From positions 1 through 43,560 of IMG/VR virus record IMGVR_UViG_3300044712_000855: DNA of 43,560 nucleotides, one strand, 5' to 3'. Positions 12,203 through 28,928 of this stretch are shown piece by piece (the first letter of the stretch is position 1; each line of letters starts with the position of its first letter). Source of the DNA: a virus. The translations under genes and the position numbers were made by a program. Under the pieces are notes generated by a model. It saw nothing but the letters and a program-made list of their open reading frames with translations. It made no database searches and was not told the DNA's origin.

Positions 12203-12231
12203 GGATATACGGCATATCCTAAGTATTTAAA
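12203..12231 (-). promoter_or_regulatory. Promoter and palindromic operator of AbrB-like gene
   Basis: Minus-strand TTTAAATA at 12224-12231, then GGATAT-GCCGT-ATATCC (12203-12219), an inverted repeat spanning the predicted transcription start. Its second half, GTATATCC, is the same word found below four early promoters on the plus strand. Confidence 0.6.
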
Positions 12232-12233
12232 CC

Positions 12234-12470
12234 TTACGTTGCTGTCGGCAGAAGATATCGTGCTCGGTAGACAGGACACTCAAGCACAACATAACCCTGC
12301 TTGCCATCCACAACCCGCAAATAACAACACTTGTCAGTGAGCGCACAAGACCCAGTAACCCGGACACTACCACTCCTAGGGTTGGTAGCGATAGGCTGGC
12401 GCAAGTAACCACAAATCAACGACTCAAGCTGCGTACCACGCACTGCACAGAGCTCATCAAGCTCCTCCAC
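12234..12470 (-). CDS. Small cysteine-containing protein, GTG start
   Basis: A 78-residue ORF beginning at GTG 12470 (MEELDELCAVRG...) and overlapping the previous gene by 14 nt. Cys-rich centre (GSCALTDKCCYLRVVDG) and a beta-like end (GYVVLECPVYRARYLL). Ends just before the next promoter. No family recognised. The start is uncertain because no strong ribosome-binding site is seen. Confidence 0.5.
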   Translation of the reverse strand: MEELDELCAVRGTQLESLICGYLRQPIATNPRSGSVRVTGSCALTDKCCYLRVVDGKQGYVVLECPVYRARYLLPTAT

Positions 12471-12738: not shown

Positions 12739-13731
12739 TCAGAGGTTGAGCCTCCGCTGCAGAGCTGTAGCTCTGCGGTACGCGGTGATCGCGGTGTGCT
12801 CATCGATCGCAAGATTCAGGTCGAGGTACGGCTGCATGACCTTCTTGTCAGGGTAGAGACGCACAGATTGTCCCCCGGGCTCGCCCTTGATGTACCCCTT
12901 CCCTCCCGCCCACAAATCATCCAGCTTGTAGCAACCCGTCCGCAGGTAGCAGACAGGCTTCTGATCATCCTGCTTGTCACAATACGTCTGCATGGCCTCT
13001 GCAGTGTGGTGGTGCGCCGCAGTCACGATGTCGGCGTTCCGGTGCTGGAGCCGTCGCATCCGCTGCGTCCCGTTGTTCTTGTTCAGGTTGCTGTTGAACG
13101 GCCCGAGTTGGTGGTATATTGCAAGGTAGTACTCGATCTGTCCTGTCTTGAGGAGGAGCTTGCTGCCGTTCTCCATGATCGGGAACTTCCTGCCTTCGAC
13201 GTCGTAGATCAGCTTGTGGATGTCCTGCCCTGTTGCGGCATACGTCCACCCTTCGTGGCATGGTGTTTCGAGGACGGCGAGGAGCTTGCCCTGCTCGTTG
13301 AGGTCACACGTTATCTTACGCATGAGGGTGACTTGTTCTTCCGGCGGTATCGCGTTCTGGAGCATCCCATCGGGGAATTTCTTCGGGATCGCGTTATCGA
13401 TCATATTCCCGCCGAAAATCGTGTAGACGCCTGGCGTTGTTGTGATTCTGTGCAGGTCCTTGAAGAAGCGGTCGTGATCCGTGTCGCCAGAACCGAGGTG
13501 CGCATCGCCCAAGAAGACTACCAGGACAGGGTCTTCTGTGTGCAGGTTGATGTGCGCCGCGTACTGACTCAGCTTCGCAGCATCTCTCGTCCGTCGCCTT
13601 GCCCGTATCGCCTGCAAGGTAGACTCGAGATTGGTCGTTGCCACCTTCGTATCGAGGTATTCTGGCGAGAAGTGCGCGACGGGAGTGGACGCTACTTCGT
13701 CGTCGGCGGCGGGCTGTTGTTCGCTCGTCAC
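12739..13731 (-). CDS. Calcineurin-like metallophosphoesterase
   Basis: About 330 residues. In numbering from the longer TTG start (13749): metal motifs FLGDAHLG (D82, H84), FGGNMIDN (N115, D118), PCHEGW (H165) and AAHHHTAEA near 248. The second motif is GGNxxD where most family members have GDxxD. A GTG at 13731 lies about 29 nt from the centre of a TATA box at 13756-13764, matching a leaderless start; the TTG at 13749 would lie upstream of transcription. The family hydrolyses phosphomono- or diesters, including DNA (Mre11/SbcD-type) and cyclic nucleotides. In a virus it could process DNA ends or degrade host signalling nucleotides. Confidence 0.8.
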   Translation of the reverse strand: MTSEQQPAADDEVASTPVAHFSPEYLDTKVATTNLESTLQAIRARRRTRDAAKLSQYAAHINLHTEDPVLVVFLGDAHLGSGDTDHDRFFKDLHRITTTPGVYTIFGGNMIDNAIPKKFPDGMLQNAIPPEEQVTLMRKITCDLNEQGKLLAVLETPCHEGWTYAATGQDIHKLIYDVEGRKFPIMENGSKLLLKTGQIEYYLAIYHQLGPFNSNLNKNNGTQRMRRLQHRNADIVTAAHHHTAEAMQTYCDKQDDQKPVCYLRTGCYKLDDLWAGGKGYIKGEPGGQSVRLYPDKKVMQPYLDLNLAIDEHTAITAYRRATALQRRLNL

Positions 13732-13755
13732 ACTTCTGCTTAACAGCAAACCAGG

Positions 13756-13764
13756 TATATATAT
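13756..13764 (-). promoter_or_regulatory. TATA box of metallophosphoesterase gene
   Basis: ATATATATA inside GGATATATATACC (read on the minus strand). Predicted start about 13734, right at the in-frame GTG at 13731, so the mRNA is probably leaderless. The surrounding word resembles the GTATATCC operator and the TATA palindrome at 21 kb. Confidence 0.55.
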
Positions 13765-13820
13765 CCTTCGGTATCATACTACACACTCATAACCACACAA
13801 TGTATTTTCACAACCACGTG

Positions 13821-14724: not shown

Positions 14725-14757
14725 TAGCTATAATTAGCTAATATTAGCTATTTATTT
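14723..14757 (-). promoter_or_regulatory. Operator of three TTAGCTA repeats at 10-bp spacing plus TATA box
   Basis: ATTAGCTA occurs at 14723-14730, 14733-14740 and 14743-14750, exactly one helical turn apart. The last two form the palindrome TAGCTAATATTAGCTA. They fill the interval between the AATAAA TATA box (14751-14757) and the start codon. Binding here would block transcription start. The downstream AbrB-like protein is the obvious candidate ligand. Confidence 0.65.
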
Positions 14758-14875
14758 CTTCCGGTACTGAACAAGGTTTGCCAACGACGATGTCCTGCCG
14801 AGAAGGAATTTACACGGGATCAGGTAGTTTTTACACAAGAAGGAGTTCTTACACAAAGCCATGAATATAGCAACA

Positions 14876-18475: not shown

Positions 18476-18747
18476 GCACATTTGAAGATAATTTTCCATC
18501 ATTGCTCGGACTTCCGTGCATAACATGTTCAGAACGTGAGTTAATCCACCGAGGACTCGTTGTTCAACATCTAGAACAATACGGAGATAGAATAGAGCTA
18601 GCGATACCTGCGTCAACCATAAACACTCATTGTGTTGATAAGCAGAGAGTACGGGATGCGTTGCGATTCTGGTTCAGCGAAGATCGACATACCGTACACA
18701 GTACACAACAACGAATAGCAGAAATAAAAAAGGAGCTGGGATTATGA
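18472..18747 (+). CDS. FPSL/DKQRV family protein, copy 1
   Basis: A 91-residue protein with the three anchors shared by the three copies in this genome: N-terminal MSTFEDNFPSL, central THCVDKQRVRDAL, C-terminal IKKELGL. The stretch between the N-terminal and central anchors varies. Small proteins with FP-x-L near the start, C-[LV]-DKQRV and a terminal ELGL recur in phage genomes. The DNA is AT-richer than the neighbours. Coupled to the next gene (ATGA-type overlap at 18744). Function unknown. Confidence 0.7.
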   Translation: MSTFEDNFPSLLGLPCITCSERELIHRGLVVQHLEQYGDRIELAIPASTINTHCVDKQRVRDALRFWFSEDRHTVHSTQQRIAEIKKELGL

Positions 18748-19574
18748 GCGCTCCAAAACAGTTCTGGAATTGGGCCTATAACACGTACGGCGACGACACA
18801 GACAAGCTCGACATCATGGCGCACTACGACCCGAGCATCACGGAAGAGGAGAACCGGACGGAGATGCTTGAGCGCTTCCCGCCGACCGGATCATGGCGAC
18901 AGCAACTATCACACCCAGAAAAGGCGGAGATCGTCGCGCTCGAGCGCAGCAGAGCGTCAAGCCTCACGAGTGACGCGCCATTCAACCTCATGCTGCAAGG
19001 CGTGAAGGTCGTAGTAGTCCTCGGAGCGACAGGCAGCGGAAAGACTGCACTCATGCACCGTACCGCCGACTCGCTGCACGAGACGACGAGCCGCAAGGTG
19101 TACGTGTACCGTCACCCAACACCGCAGATTCTCCCGAAGCACTACGCGCAACTCTATCGTTTCGGTGACGTCGAGCACCTACGCGACTGTATACTGTGGC
19201 TGGACGAACCACAACTGAGCCTGCCGAAGTACGACAAGCACCAGAACGACACGATGCTGCGCCTCTTCTCTTTGTGCAGGCAACGTAACATCACTGTTAT
19301 CATCGGGACGAGTGATACGCGGTACGTGACGCGCGGCATGGAGGCGTACGTGGACGAGTGGATGCTCAAGGACCTCGAGCCGTCGATGGTCAAGAACGGC
19401 AGTATGGCGAAGAAGATCATCAAGGACAGCGTGCTCCTCGACATCGACGGCTATAGCTGCGCGGTTGACGAGTTCGTGCGCTACAACCGATCGTCTCCGC
19501 AGCACAACGGCCGCCACTGCTTCGCGCTTCCATCGTACTGGACCAACGCGCATTCAACGCCATACGGCGCATAA
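18744..19574 (+). CDS. P-loop NTPase (packaging/Zot-like or AAA-type ATPase)
   Basis: A 276-residue protein with Walker A GATGSGKT (94-101), Walker B CILWLDEPQ (149-157, Asp154, Glu155) and a strand-loop TVIIGTSDTRYVTRG (185-198) in the place of a sensor. The overall order resembles the small Zot/pI-type and HerA-related viral ATPases: P-loop, DE-x-Q, then a short C-terminal region. It also resembles helicase loaders. It lies in the early module well away from the terminase. This argues for a replication or DNA-handling role rather than packaging. Confidence 0.7.
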   Translation: MSAPKQFWNWAYNTYGDDTDKLDIMAHYDPSITEEENRTEMLERFPPTGSWRQQLSHPEKAEIVALERSRASSLTSDAPFNLMLQGVKVVVVLGATGSGKTALMHRTADSLHETTSRKVYVYRHPTPQILPKHYAQLYRFGDVEHLRDCILWLDEPQLSLPKYDKHQNDTMLRLFSLCRQRNITVIIGTSDTRYVTRGMEAYVDEWMLKDLEPSMVKNGSMAKKIIKDSVLLDIDGYSCAVDEFVRYNRSSPQHNGRHCFALPSYWTNAHSTPYGA

Positions 19575-19860: not shown

Positions 19861-20184
19861 GTGACAACCTTTGAAGAACAATTCCCCCCCCTTAAACCAT
19901 TCGTTCATACAACAACTATTGAACCAAATACTATATACTTTATTCCTATATCAGCAGTAGAAACGCATTGTGTAGATAAACAACGCGTGATAAATACACA
20001 CGAACAATTCAATAGTGTTTGTCTTCTCTGTGGTTTGTTGATTAAAAAAGCTCCCTATTGCTGGGAGAAACATCTCGAAGAAAAACACAAAGAACGTTAC
20101 GAAGACGATCTGCGCTTTGGAACTATAGAGACAAACTTCTTGTTCATCAATAGAGAGGATGAAACTAAGGAGCTGGGACTATGA
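19861..20184 (+). CDS. FPSL/DKQRV family protein with inserted zinc finger, copy 2
   Basis: A 107-residue protein from a GTG with AAAGGTGCTAAC upstream. It carries the family anchors MTTFEEQFPPL, THCVDKQRV and ETKELGL. Between the last two it has an insertion, CLLCGLLIKKAPYCWEKHLEEKH, which looks like a C2H2-type finger. The next copy follows at a four-base overlap. Confidence 0.7.
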   Translation: MTTFEEQFPPLKPFVHTTTIEPNTIYFIPISAVETHCVDKQRVINTHEQFNSVCLLCGLLIKKAPYCWEKHLEEKHKERYEDDLRFGTIETNFLFINREDETKELGL

Positions 20185-20435
20185 CAACGTTCGAAGAACA
20201 ATTCCCGAGTTTGGTTGGTAGGCGTATCCACATAGATGTGTGTGGGGATGAGTTGTATGTACCGAACGGAGACTACTTATCCTACACATCCATTGAGGAG
20301 TGCTGTCTCGACAAGCAGCGCGTTCGTGAGGCAGTCGGAGAGCTGACACGTCTGAGAGGGATAACTGTTGAGTGTCAGATTCACAATTCCATCACCACCG
20401 ACAGAGAACGCATCTTGAAGGAGTTGGGATTATGA
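20181..20435 (+). CDS. FPSL/DKQRV family protein, copy 3
   Basis: An 84-residue protein: MTTFEEQFPSL, EECCLDKQRVREAV, LKELGL. N-terminus almost identical to copy 2, so tandem duplication is likely. The middle differs in sequence and length. Coupled through ATGA overlaps with both neighbours. Confidence 0.7.
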   Translation: MTTFEEQFPSLVGRRIHIDVCGDELYVPNGDYLSYTSIEECCLDKQRVREAVGELTRLRGITVECQIHNSITTDRERILKELGL

Positions 20436-20611
20436 CCTACATGACGTACGACTACGGCTTCAACCGCCAGGAGATCAAGGCGAAGATGCGCGAGAGAGAA
20501 GCTATCCGACAAAACATCTGGCGGCTCAACAAGAAAGCCGATTTGCTCAGCGGGAAACTCGCGGCGATCGACGCGGAGCTCGCGCAGCACCGAGTCGACG
20601 TGCGCGTCTGA
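20432..20611 (+). CDS. Small helical protein
   Basis: A 59-residue, charged, helical protein (MTYMTYDYGFNRQEIKAKMRERE...) starting within the previous stop. Last gene before a pyrimidine-tract terminator. Its end overlaps the convergent membrane-protein frame. Confidence 0.6.
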   Translation: MTYMTYDYGFNRQEIKAKMREREAIRQNIWRLNKKADLLSGKLAAIDAELAQHRVDVRV

Positions 20612-21041
20612 CGATACTCTCTTTTTCTCTTCGATTCTCCAGCTCTTGCGACATCAAGCTGTCATCCGTTCGATCAACGTCGCGCACGAGTAAGTCCGGC
20701 GTCGGAGGACGATCGCGAGCGTCCAGGCGCGACCACGTCGCACCGCCAGCGAAGATACCGATGACGCCGCCAGCGAAGAGCGTGACAGCAGCGATAAACG
20801 ACAACTCACCGATACTGAACGACCCGTACGCGAGCCACGCCGCCGTGGTGCACAGCACGCCGACCACACAAGTATAGATGACGCTTCGACGGAAGGAGAC
20901 AGCGCTCTCGATCGCCAGCCAGTCTTCGTACTTTGGGTCGCTCGGGAGGGGCGGCCAGATCGTGCCTTGCGGATCATCGACGTGCGTCATGAAGAGGGTG
21001 GCGCAAGAGAAAACGCGCTGCGCCATCGCAGTTGGGTGCAT
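20547..21041 (-). CDS. Membrane protein under the palindromic divergent promoter
   Basis: A 164-residue protein and the only minus-strand gene within the early module. Start at ATG 21041 (MHPTAMAQ), about 42 nt from the centre of the shared TATA palindrome; ATG 21026 and later Met are alternatives. Two hydrophobic helices (about residues 51-70 and 76-98, rich in Gly and Ala), then an Arg/Asp-rich tail, of which the last part overlaps the convergent gene. Possible roles include superinfection exclusion or lysis control in the manner of a lysogeny-type switch, but there is no direct evidence. Confidence 0.55.
   Translation of the reverse strand: MHPTAMAQRVFSCATLFMTHVDDPQGTIWPPLPSDPKYEDWLAIESAVSFRRSVIYTCVVGVLCTTAAWLAYGSFSIGELSFIAAVTLFAGGVIGIFAGGATWSRLDARDRPPTPDLLVRDVDRTDDSLMSQELENRREKESIVRRARRLGAARAPRRSPRVSR
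20618..20632 (+). terminator. Pyrimidine-tract terminator
   Basis: TCTCTTTTTCTCTTC directly after the stop of the 59-residue gene. Similar to the tracts after late structural genes. Also lies inside the convergent minus-strand frame. Confidence 0.5.
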
Positions 21042-21072
21042 TGGACCCCGATCTTGGTACTAACACCAACCA

Positions 21073-21094
21073 CGCAAGGTATATATACCTTGCG
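21073..21094. promoter_or_regulatory. Perfect 22-bp palindrome containing a TATA box, divergent promoter
   Basis: CGCAAGGTATA joined to its exact reverse complement. The central GGTATATATACC is a TATA box on both strands, and CGCAAG on each side fills the BRE position. Plus-strand start predicted about 21108-21111, minus-strand about 21057. Any dimeric repressor binding the palindrome would compete with TBP/TFB for both directions at once. Confidence 0.7.
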
Positions 21095-21110
21095 TGAGCG
21101 AAATGACCTT

Positions 21111-21458
21111 GTGTCATACAACGACGTCCTACAACGCGCAGACTGGCTCTCAAGCACACAAATGTACAAACGCCTGCCTGCACTCGTGCACCTCATCAAC
21201 GACAGAAACGCTTGGTCAAGCGGGGTACTCTACGACGCCGCGGTCGATCAAGGATATCGGATGTCATACAGCACCTTCCAACGCGACATCGACCTCTGTG
21301 AGTCGATGAACTTCGTGAGCGCAGATCAAGGAGCGTGGGGCGCCGGACGCAGCACGCTCATCGCGATCAATAAGGGCGCGATCGAGCTTTTGACAACAGC
21401 GAAAATACCTTGCCTACCATCAAGACCGCTCAAGAAAACTCAGCCACGCAAGATTTAA
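21111..21458 (+). CDS. Winged-helix regulator, leaderless GTG start
   Basis: A 115-residue protein. The frame is open upstream, but the GTG at 21111 (MSYNDVLQRADWL...) lies 28 nt from the TATA centre, which marks it as the leaderless start. Helices LPALVHLINDRN and YSTFQRDIDLCESMNFVSADQG followed by RSTLIAINKGAIELL fit a winged-helix DNA-binding domain. It is the natural candidate for binding the 22-bp palindrome in its own promoter. Its stop overlaps the TATA box of the next gene. Confidence 0.65.
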   Translation: MSYNDVLQRADWLSSTQMYKRLPALVHLINDRNAWSSGVLYDAAVDQGYRMSYSTFQRDIDLCESMNFVSADQGAWGAGRSTLIAINKGAIELLTTAKIPCLPSRPLKKTQPRKI

Positions 21459-21474
21459 ATACCAGGTATATCCA
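21454..21474 (+). promoter_or_regulatory. Early promoter with GTATATCC element
   Basis: TTTAAATA at 21454-21461 preceded by ACGCAAGA, followed by GTATATCCA at 21466-21474. The upstream ACGCAAG is shared with the promoters at 21073 and 28116. Predicted start near 21484 and ATG at 21521. Confidence 0.6.
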
Positions 21475-21520: not shown

Positions 21521-21706
21521 ATGACCGAAAACACTGTGATTCTGAACCGCACCGAAAATCCAGATTCTCTGGAGCTATCAACACCTGCTCGCGGGGGAGC
21601 TATAAAAATATACGGAGACTTCTCGAATAAAGAAGAGTTCCAAAAGAAAATAGAAAACGCGATTGAACTCCGCAAGTATGCAGGGACACTCATCGAGGTA
21701 GCATGA
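21521..21706 (+). CDS. Small protein of unknown function
   Basis: A 61-residue protein, MTENTVILNRTENPDSLEL..., with mixed alpha/beta pattern ending in an amphipathic helix (NKEEFQKKIENAIELRKYAG). Start chosen downstream of the promoter. The stop overlaps a 15-codon ORF (ATGATGA at 21703) that runs to 21750 and may be a coupling peptide. Confidence 0.6.
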   Translation: MTENTVILNRTENPDSLELSTPARGGAIKIYGDFSNKEEFQKKIENAIELRKYAGTLIEVA

Positions 21707-22280: not shown

Positions 22281-22444
22281 GCGTCAAGACGATCACGGAC
22301 AAGATATACACGTACACCGTACGCGAGTACCGGACGACAGACGACGGCATCTTCATCGAGTTCTACGACGACCACAGCGACGTCACCAGACGCTACCCAG
22401 TCAAGAACTGCCAGATCATAGTGACGGGTGGGGCCGATGAGTGA
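22256..22444 (+). CDS. Small beta-rich protein upstream of helicase
   Basis: A 62-residue protein with GGGTGGCGG upstream: MEERLYKISVKTITDKIYTYTVREY... Alternating pattern predicts a small beta barrel or sandwich. The stop lies within the helicase start region, so it is coupled to helicase synthesis. Possible helicase cofactor; unknown. Confidence 0.6.
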   Translation: MEERLYKISVKTITDKIYTYTVREYRTTDDGIFIEFYDDHSDVTRRYPVKNCQIIVTGGADE

Positions 22445-24554
22445 CGACGTGAACCCGCGAGAGCAGATATTCACGCTCTGCAAGGACCGACTCTACACGC
22501 TACCGATATGGACGACAATAGAACCGAACCTGGCGATATACTGCTCGAACATATCCAACACAGGAAAAGACAAAGACAAAGAATCGATCATCGTAGCACT
22601 CCTCAACATAAAAAAACTCCTCAACGCGAACAACGTAGCGCAAGAGTACGTGCGATTCATCGACGAAGAGATAGAACTGACACAGCAAAGCAGACAGATG
22701 AGCACATACTGTGAGAAGGACGATTATATCGACGACGCGACGATCAAGCGTCACATTCACATCAGCATGACGAACGAAGGAATCATCGGCATCCCCGGGA
22801 AGTGGACGTACGAGCAGTGCCGCAAGCTCACGAACGGAGTCTACAGGAACACCGGACTCGTCAAGTTCTTCATCAGCAAAGAGCAGACGATCAAAGGACG
22901 CATCGTCGCGGAGTTCTTCTCGACAATGCAAGAAATACCTGTATGCGCAGTCCTGCGGCCAAAGAAAGAGGACCAAGCACACATCAACGTCATCTCACTC
23001 TTCGGAGAGACAATCGACGCGAAGAAATTCCACAAGCTACGAGAGATCACTGCTTCAATGTACGTCTACCGCTTCCTGCGCAGCAACGGCGCAGAGTACG
23101 TGCTCCTATCAACGTCGAAACTCGACATCGGAGAGTACGAGATCGACGGGACAGTCACAACGAAGAACGACAACAAGAGTCTCACGGACAGCGCGAAGAT
23201 GCTCACGAAGATGCCGTTCCTCTTCTGCAACGAAGCGCGGTCGATCATCACGAAGTTCCACACAGTGCAAGAGTACGCCGAACACGTTAAGCTCCTAAAT
23301 CTCTCGAAGGACAACCTTTTCAACTTCCCGTTCACGTTCACCACCGTATCAGATGGTGTCGAGCGGCAGCACGTCCAGCGCCACCCGTCATGGTTCAAGT
23401 GGCTCATGTGGTCGTGGCTCACGCACAAAGAGAAGGGCGACAGCAGCAAGTACCCGTTGCACATCGTCATCGTGGCGCCAGCGAACAGCGGCAAGACGCT
23501 CCTATCGAACGGCCTGCACCACCGCACGCTCGAGCACCAACCCGTCTTCACCGGCTCCGGCAGCACCGTCAAGGAGATCGTGCCGTCCTTCCACGCGACG
23601 CCACCGAAGGCAGGATACTTCGCGCTCTCGCATCGCTTTGCGTTCTTCGACGAGTTTTTCCGCTGTGTGCAGAACGTGTCGGACGACGACCGACGATCAG
23701 AAGCGCTCGCACGCATGAATGACCTGCTCGAGCACCAGAAGAGAACGTACGGCAGCGGCAAAGGGAACATCACTGTGCAGGGCACTGCGAGGGCGCTGAT
23801 GACGAACAACCCCCCGCGTGGAGTGCGCAGCATGGAGGACTTGCTATCGACGTTCGACCAGAGCTTCCTGTCGCGCAGCCTCATCTACTTCCAAGACGAC
23901 AAAAACGAGCACTTCCGCATGGTGCGCGAATCATCCATCACTGACTGCGAGACGTACGAGGACTGCATAACGTCGGAAGAGTTCGTCGGTCTCCTCGACT
24001 TCTTCCACAGCTTCCACGCGAAGTACGACTTGCAGCGCGTGCACGAGATTTACAAGCGCTCGATCCCTCTGCTCACGTCGACGCAGCTCGGCCACTACGA
24101 AGCGCGACACCGCCACCACATCGAGTGCCTCATCGACGGACTCATCAAGACGCGAGCGATCATGTCGTGCAGCGCAGACTTCACTGCTGCCGAGGAAGAC
24201 TACGATCGCCTCGAGACGGTGTGGGTGCATATCATCAAGAGCTGGGTGCGCAGCGAGCAAGTCAAGAGCGTCCCGCTCCGCTTCCGGATCAAGTACTTAC
24301 CAGAGATGTGTCAGTGGGTCTACAAACTCATCAAGGACAACACGACAGATGACCACCCGACGATAGATAGATCGACGCTCACGGAGCTCGCGCTCAAGGG
24401 GCTCGACCGCTCGAGCTTCTATGCGTCATTCACCATCCTGCGAGAGAACAAACTCGTCGACGACACGGACGGAATACGATTGTACTTCCGAGTCGTAGGG
24501 TACACGCACGAGGAAGAAGTGCGAAAACTGCCGTCGATCGTGATGGAGGAGTGA
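22437..24554 (+). CDS. MCM-like AAA+ replicative helicase
   Basis: A 705-residue protein. The N-terminal 330 residues show no recognised domain. An AAA+ module follows: Walker A VAPANSGKTLL (about 345-355), Walker B FAFFDEFFR (about 401-409), LLEHQKRTYGSGKGNITVQGTARALMTNNPP (about 430-460) matching the MCM helix-2/pre-sensor region and sensor 1 Asn, and SFLSRSLIYF with a candidate arginine finger (about 478). The C-terminus (about 640-705) looks like a winged helix, as in archaeal MCMs. Viral MCM-like helicases are known in archaeal viruses. Its N-terminus differs from cellular MCM and lacks an obvious zinc finger. Works with the primase 2 kb downstream. Alternative: an SF3-type helicase. Confidence 0.7.
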   Translation: MSDDVNPREQIFTLCKDRLYTLPIWTTIEPNLAIYCSNISNTGKDKDKESIIVALLNIKKLLNANNVAQEYVRFIDEEIELTQQSRQMSTYCEKDDYIDDATIKRHIHISMTNEGIIGIPGKWTYEQCRKLTNGVYRNTGLVKFFISKEQTIKGRIVAEFFSTMQEIPVCAVLRPKKEDQAHINVISLFGETIDAKKFHKLREITASMYVYRFLRSNGAEYVLLSTSKLDIGEYEIDGTVTTKNDNKSLTDSAKMLTKMPFLFCNEARSIITKFHTVQEYAEHVKLLNLSKDNLFNFPFTFTTVSDGVERQHVQRHPSWFKWLMWSWLTHKEKGDSSKYPLHIVIVAPANSGKTLLSNGLHHRTLEHQPVFTGSGSTVKEIVPSFHATPPKAGYFALSHRFAFFDEFFRCVQNVSDDDRRSEALARMNDLLEHQKRTYGSGKGNITVQGTARALMTNNPPRGVRSMEDLLSTFDQSFLSRSLIYFQDDKNEHFRMVRESSITDCETYEDCITSEEFVGLLDFFHSFHAKYDLQRVHEIYKRSIPLLTSTQLGHYEARHRHHIECLIDGLIKTRAIMSCSADFTAAEEDYDRLETVWVHIIKSWVRSEQVKSVPLRFRIKYLPEMCQWVYKLIKDNTTDDHPTIDRSTLTELALKGLDRSSFYASFTILRENKLVDDTDGIRLYFRVVGYTHEEEVRKLPSIVMEE

Positions 24555-28091: not shown

Positions 28092-28115
28092 CACAGGCCA
28101 ATCAGCAACGCAAGA

Positions 28116-28147
28116 TATAAATAGTTGCCTCAGAATCAGTATATCCA
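28116..28147 (+). promoter_or_regulatory. Early promoter with GTATATCC element
   Basis: TATAAATA at 28116-28123 preceded by ACGCAAGA; GTATATCCA at 28139-28147, over the predicted start. ATG follows at 28188 after GGGTGGAG. Confidence 0.6.
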
Positions 28148-28187: not shown

Positions 28188-28928
28188 ATGGAAAATGAGT
28201 TTGTCGTACCGACGAGCAACAAAGTAGCGACGTTCACGAAGCCGAAGATCAGGCCAGGATTCTACGCCGCGCAACTCATCGACATCAAGATCAAGGACAA
28301 GGAAGGCAAGTTCTTCGAGAAGGTGAACGTGCAATCACAGACGCGATCGAACTACGCCATCCTTGAGTTCGCCATCTACAAGGCAGTGGAAGACGACTCG
28401 AACCCGGAGAGCTACACTGTCGGAGACCCAGTTGTCGTGAAGATCGACCACGGAACGCAAGAAGTGACGCTGTCGCAGTTCATCAACTGGCGGTACATCA
28501 AGACGGATGCGAAGGGAAACGTCGAGTACCGCAGCGGTATCTCGCCAGGACGTGACGGGAGCGGCAGCATGGCGGCGAAGACCTTCCAGGCGCTCGGCTG
28601 GGCCGGGCCTGATGGCGCAGCTCTCAACATGCAGTCGTTCATCGGCGCGTGGGCCGGAGCGCTCGTGGTCGACTACAAGGACAAGCAGAACGTCGAGTTC
28701 AGCGTGATCCAGAACCTCGTACAGTGGAAGGGACCGACCCCACAGAGCGCCACTGGAACCCCGTCAGCTGTTAAGGAGGACGTTATCTCTCCCGCCCCTA
28801 GTGCTGCTCCGACTGCGTTCACGCAGCGCGTGGAGGCCCTCAAGAAGCAGCTCGATGAGGGTATCATCACGCAGCGAGGCTACGACATCGCTGTCGCGAG
28901 CCTACGCAGCGAGTACGGTGTGAACTGA
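28188..28928 (+). CDS. OB-like single-stranded DNA-binding candidate with SHOCT-like tail
   Basis: A 246-residue protein. Residues about 20-170 are beta-rich with alternating charge (GFYAAQLIDIKIKDKEGKF, AILEFAIYKA, DPVVVKIDHG), like OB-fold single-stranded DNA-binding proteins of phages. Next come a Pro/Ala linker (about 185-212) and a short helical hairpin, RVEALKKQLDEGIITQRGYD, that resembles a SHOCT domain. It has its own promoter, as expected for a product needed in quantity, and follows the primase. Function inferred from pattern and context. Confidence 0.6.
   Translation: MENEFVVPTSNKVATFTKPKIRPGFYAAQLIDIKIKDKEGKFFEKVNVQSQTRSNYAILEFAIYKAVEDDSNPESYTVGDPVVVKIDHGTQEVTLSQFINWRYIKTDAKGNVEYRSGISPGRDGSGSMAAKTFQALGWAGPDGAALNMQSFIGAWAGALVVDYKDKQNVEFSVIQNLVQWKGPTPQSATGTPSAVKEDVISPAPSAAPTAFTQRVEALKKQLDEGIITQRGYDIAVASLRSEYGVN

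Follow-up and report, generated by a model that had tools for sequence, protein, structure and literature searches.

A perfect 26-bp palindrome in a tailed virus, probably a bidirectional archaeal promoter, next to a gene for a stand-alone Orc1/Cdc6-type winged helix

The locus considered here raises a simple question: does a perfect palindrome lying between two divergent open reading frames of a virus act as a promoter for both of them, as a promoter for one, as an operator, or as an element of a replication origin? The DNA analysed (the window) is a 43,560-base IMG/VR record with a G+C content of 55%. Matches to PHROGs and Pfam identify a portal, a terminase and an SU10-type capsid protein, and because of these predicted products the virus is classed as tailed. 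Terminase or portal relatives with 51-53% identity are present in L006, L092 and L089. The last of these (JAFCFZ010000016.1), a contig of 13.6 kb from a Candidatus Parvarchaeota bin, carries a terminase 53% identical to that of the window and is a lead to the host lineage; owing to these terminase relatives the host is likely, although not proven, to be a DPANN archaeon. Distant kin (30-38% identity) are mostly AT-rich contigs, and the G+C content of the window exceeds that of all these relatives.

The first-pass annotation had described a perfect 22-bp palindrome at 21073-21094 with CGCAAG on each arm. That palindrome is exact and forms the inner portion of a 26-bp one (CACGCAAGGTATATATACCTTGCGTG), and CGCAAG is indeed found on both arms, with TATATATA in between. 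The features of the region, together with the other promoters of the same class, are as follows:

21071-21096, both strands: perfect 26-bp palindrome, putative BRE-TATA-BRE element
21073-21087, plus strand: predicted rightward promoter, with BRE-like CGCAAG at 21073-21078 and TATA element at 21080-21087; 0 mismatches, GTG at offset 38
21080-21094, minus strand: predicted leftward promoter, with BRE at 21089-21094; 0 mismatches, without the CARCM 5' extension that the plus side and the sites at 21441, 28103 and 12244 have
21111-21458, plus strand: 115-aa winged-helix protein, predicted leaderless GTG, Orc1/Cdc6-type domain at residues ~22-90
20547-21041, minus strand: ORF of 164 aa, two membrane helices predicted, start at ATG 21041 or alternatively at ATG 20990
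21445-21463, plus strand: second member of the promoter class, CACGCAAGATTTAAATACC; it overlaps the winged-helix gene at the gene's 3' end and precedes the ORF at 21521-21706; not palindromic
28103-28123, plus strand: third promoter of the class, CAGCAACGCAAGATATAAATA, preceding the ORF at 28188-28928
12224-12244, minus strand: fourth promoter of the class, CAGCAACGTAAGGTTTAAATA, with a leaderless ATG at offset 38
13749-13770, both strands: imperfect divergent TATA, AACCAGGTATATATATCCTTCG, with a leaderless GTG at 13731 (minus strand) for an exonuclease-like gene

The palindrome is the longest of the window, the runner-up measuring 16 bp. None of at least 26 bp arose in 600 sequences drawn from Markov models of orders 1-3, where the longest measured 24 bp, and a separate set of 100 sequences gave one of 28 bp, which puts its chance probability at ~1% or less per window. 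An inversion made by the assembly was discarded as its source: the flanks diverge directly outside the 26 bp, a pattern that does not point to one. A cluster of the words CGCAAG/CTTGCG at ~20.6-21.5 kb is not significant, by our own estimate, over a scan of the whole window. The runner-up of 16 bp is part of an iterated TAGCTAATATTAGCTAATTATAGCTAATG at 14735-14763, which runs across the site where a leaderless leftward ORF is predicted to start.

The reading of the arms as BRE plus TATA, proposed on first inspection, is supported by the behaviour of the same motif elsewhere as a putative promoter, in the window and in relatives. The arms hold the upstream half of a motif made of CGCAAG and an AT-rich TATA element, which recurs at 21447(+), 28109(+) and 12238(-). 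Its form CGCAAGRTWTAWATA is found with 0 mismatches at 21447(+), at 28109(+) and on each strand of the palindrome, and with up to 3 mismatches at 12 sites, against 2.2 expected and a maximum of 6 in 100 shuffles. Several members (21067, 21441, 28103, 12244) also have in common a longer 5' part, CARCMACGYAAG, which is absent from the leftward arm of the palindrome. When offsets are counted from the first C of the motif, an ATG or GTG lies at 37-39 nt in 6 of the 12 sites that match the core AAGRTWTAWATA with no more than one mismatch (21073+, 12238-, 13770-, 14308-, 14763- and 14869+), where ~1.1 would be expected by chance; this spacing is the distance expected for leaderless genes. The GTG at 39 of 14869+ is probably not a true start, because an ATG led by a Shine-Dalgarno sequence lies at 48, and the genes following 21447 and 28109 have instead leaders with a Shine-Dalgarno-like GGAG. 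The related virus L092 displays the same promoter anatomy (CGAAAGGTTTATATA, with an ATG at 37), and among relatives the motif is followed by an ATG at 37 in 3/16 sites, compared with 0.31 expected per offset. Since the motif recurs, its spacing to start codons fits and relatives show a like anatomy, the best interpretation of CGCAAG is the BRE of an ordinary promoter of this virus group. A second divergent TATA, an imperfect one, lies within 13744-13800, between the leaderless GTG at 13731 (minus strand) of a gene with a match to the DNA repair exonuclease family phrog_7339 and an ATG at 13800 on the opposite side.

On the right of the palindrome, the claim of a leaderless GTG is supported for the codon at 21111, which stands at offset 38 from the motif, and not for the codon at 21094 within the palindrome. 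The former is a good predicted start and fits leaderless transcription because starts cluster 37-39 nt past the motif; no in-frame start lies between it and the palindrome. The latter, in the right arm, was rejected: it opens a non-coding frame of 71 aa (-15 bits) and is ~10 bp from the TATA centre.

Taken together, a bidirectional archaeal core promoter of the BRE-TATA-BRE type is the explanation that we consider the most probable, with appreciable room for others. The site has the layout of such promoters, a symmetrical TATA with a BRE on either side, and both the recurrence of the motif and its start-codon spacing, as read from sequence, mark it as a promoter in this genome. TBP would sit on the symmetrical TATA element, TFB would dock at either of the two identical BREs, and RNA polymerase would start on either strand, ~27 bp away from the centre. 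A rightward start at or next to 21111 would give the Orc1-type winged-helix protein a leaderless mRNA; a leftward one at ~21056 would give a short leader followed by the membrane ORF at 21041; two complexes on a single TATA box would be mutually exclusive. Two-way transcription, mutual exclusion and expression of the leftward ORF are what we infer from this arrangement.

Promoters of this kind are already known, and the palindrome is a strikingly perfect member of the group. In Pyrococcus furiosus, the starts of BRE-TATA-BRE bidirectional promoters have been mapped 49-50 bp apart and reproduced in vitro (PMC6640164), and bidirectionality is described as following in general from the symmetry of promoters (Warman et al. 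2021, as cited in PMC10268837). The viral site likewise has one symmetrical TATA and two BREs, with divergent starts expected ~50-56 bp apart; it differs in being perfectly symmetrical over 26 bp and in having a candidate gene on each side, whereas in P. furiosus the second of the BREs is the weaker one and its RNA is mostly antisense. The palindrome constitutes a clean natural test of archaeal promoter directionality, as its two directions share the same BRE and TATA and differ in their flanks only.

The leftward half is where a one-way promoter has to be weighed, in which only the rightward gene would be expressed and the second BRE would be due to chance or to an inverted duplication, or would yield a non-functional antisense RNA. 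The ATG at 21041, the first on that side, lies ~15 nt beyond the mirror start site (~21056); no start codon at leaderless distance and no clear Shine-Dalgarno sequence were found on the leftward side and, since the 5' CARCM is missing as well, this side may be weak or mere noise. Archaeal bidirectional starts are commonly taken as noise (PMC6640164). The ORF itself is weak: its coding score is +11.6 bits over 164 codons, it shares 65 nt with the end of a rightward gene, and searches turned up no homologues, the only Pfam match being a sub-threshold one to DUF3180. Against a one-way promoter, eight identical arm bases have a random probability of 1.5e-5, and an open frame of 164 codons has a probability of ~0.005 per start in this DNA and here carries two strong hydrophobic segments (mean hydropathy 2.2 and 1.8). 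We take the ORF for a probable, not a certain, gene, leftward transcription of a membrane protein is plausible, and we give the one-way promoter roughly one chance in four.

Not supported, and somewhat less probable still, is the switch proposed in the first-pass annotation, where the palindrome would be promoter and operator at once; on this reading a dimer of the winged-helix protein would bind all 26 bp and shut off both genes. The winged-helix gene adjoins the palindrome, the half-site CACGCAAG is found again at 21445, and the 8-bp arm symmetry is above what two independent promoters would predict: a second arm identical at 8/8 positions has a probability of 0.4% if drawn independently from eight promoter sites of the virus and of 2% if drawn from three sites of the same class. 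Because full identity is this improbable, an added constraint, of which an operator would be one, or a recent inverted duplication could conceivably lie behind it. Promoter arms by themselves nevertheless explain much of the symmetry; the palindrome's arms match BREs employed at other sites of the genome, and the symmetrical core TATATATA supplies part of the palindrome length. No match to the palindrome pattern CGCAAGRTWTAWAYCTTGCG was found in IMG/VR, nor to the looser CGNAAGNTWTAWANCTTNCG in 371 genomes of the phylum of the Parvarchaeota contig, and among the virus relatives, many of them fragments, none was found to carry either the gene pair or the palindrome. In a related virus (L096 2825-2842, L097 2955-2972), an 18-bp palindrome, TCATAGATATATCTATGA, lies over a predicted leaderless start just before the portal gene and is by its position a good operator candidate.

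What weighs further on the operator idea is the nature of the protein, annotated at first simply as a winged helix. A profile of ten DPANN Orc1/Cdc6 winged helices bears out that fold and matches the viral protein with an E-value of 9.9e-11, compared with 0.16 for the top-scoring one among 1,845 shuffled sequences; standard searches give only a weak match (E 0.01), to an ORC1-type model at its C-terminal end. When the 371 genomes from the phylum of the Parvarchaeota contig were searched with the viral protein, 111 matched with one ORF each, mostly of ~360 aa, and the match fell nearly always within the same 60-75 residues; all three of the ORFs scanned are Orc1/Cdc6 (E down to 1e-67; Pfam AAA_22 and Cdc6_lid). 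By these profile matches, the 115-aa protein is homologous to the winged helix at the C terminus of DPANN Orc1/Cdc6 and forms a stand-alone version of it. Over 60-88 residues, among them the SYxxFQR helix, it is ~25-37% identical to the initiators (NCBIfam NF001624, TIGR02928), whose ATPase (AAA+) and lid domains it lacks; no relation to Orc1 was seen for the AAA-like gene at 18744-19574. This identity of the supposed regulator is a new point, and a more unexpected one than the two-way promoter.

The Orc1/Cdc6 winged helix binds origin DNA jointly with its AAA+ part, which sits poorly with a lone repressor. Helix 3 of the viral protein (SYSTFQRDIDLCES), which from winged-helix topology would be the recognition helix, has a charge of -2 and has lost the conserved K and [KR], whereas that of the ten host proteins (SYKSFQRRIxKLEE) has a charge of +2 to +4; in the viral protein a basic tail (+6) follows. 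This acidic charge, which argues weakly against an operator, and the loss of basic residues make canonical DNA reading doubtful; the operator idea is therefore weakened, and a role on host Orc1 or helicase is conceivable. We find a role in replication or host takeover more likely for the protein than repression of this site. A lone Orc1/Cdc6 winged helix that could affect replication of the virus or of its host offers a handle on viruses of DPANN archaea.

No relatives of the protein were detected by single-sequence and profile scans of IMG/VR or by a PDB sequence search, and none of the virus relatives compared, many of which are fragments, encodes it. AlphaFold2 run without an alignment gave a pLDDT of 46, too poor for use, and no convincing k-mers or palindromes were shared upstream of host orc1 genes. 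A limited literature search found no lone Orc1/Cdc6 winged helix among archaeal-virus replication proteins; Thermococcales viral MCMs have an N-terminal Orc1-like winged helix (PMC12934983, preprint), which resembles the present case in placing such a domain in a virus near a replication module and differs from it in being fused to MCM instead of forming a separate 115-aa protein. A speculative scenario, to which we attach little probability, is that the virus freed a host Orc1/Cdc6 winged helix and remodelled its DNA-binding face, the symmetrical promoter being also its target and coupling transcription direction to replication or to the shut-off of host initiation.

Cellular Orc1 genes often adjoin their origin. 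The least probable reading, and a distinctly unlikely one, is a viral origin element at which the Orc1-type winged helix would read inverted repeats at an AT-rich core and recruit a helicase (candidate at 22428-24554): the Orc1/Cdc6 homology, the nearby P-loop ATPase genes (18744-19574 and 22428-24554) and the proposal of Orc1-like winged helices on viral MCM as origin binders (PMC12934983, preprint) speak for it, but helix 3 is not basic, the 708-aa helicase candidate has no MCM match, an array of iterated sites is absent, GC skew has no turn at 21 kb and is uninformative on the origin, and better candidates are found in the larger intergenic stretches at 13.8-15.4 kb.

The product of 22428-24554, a 708-aa protein, carries a Walker A (APANSGKT) and a Walker B (FFDEFF) motif, is winged-helix-like at its C-terminal end and is a possible viral replicative helicase. 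An MCM-like identity was dropped after a PF00493 search gave no match; no family match was obtained, and IMG/VR scans returned nothing. At 19861-20206, two neighbouring small genes are nearly alike over their first 25 nt (TGACAACSTTYGAAGAACAATTCCC), which suggests a gene duplication.
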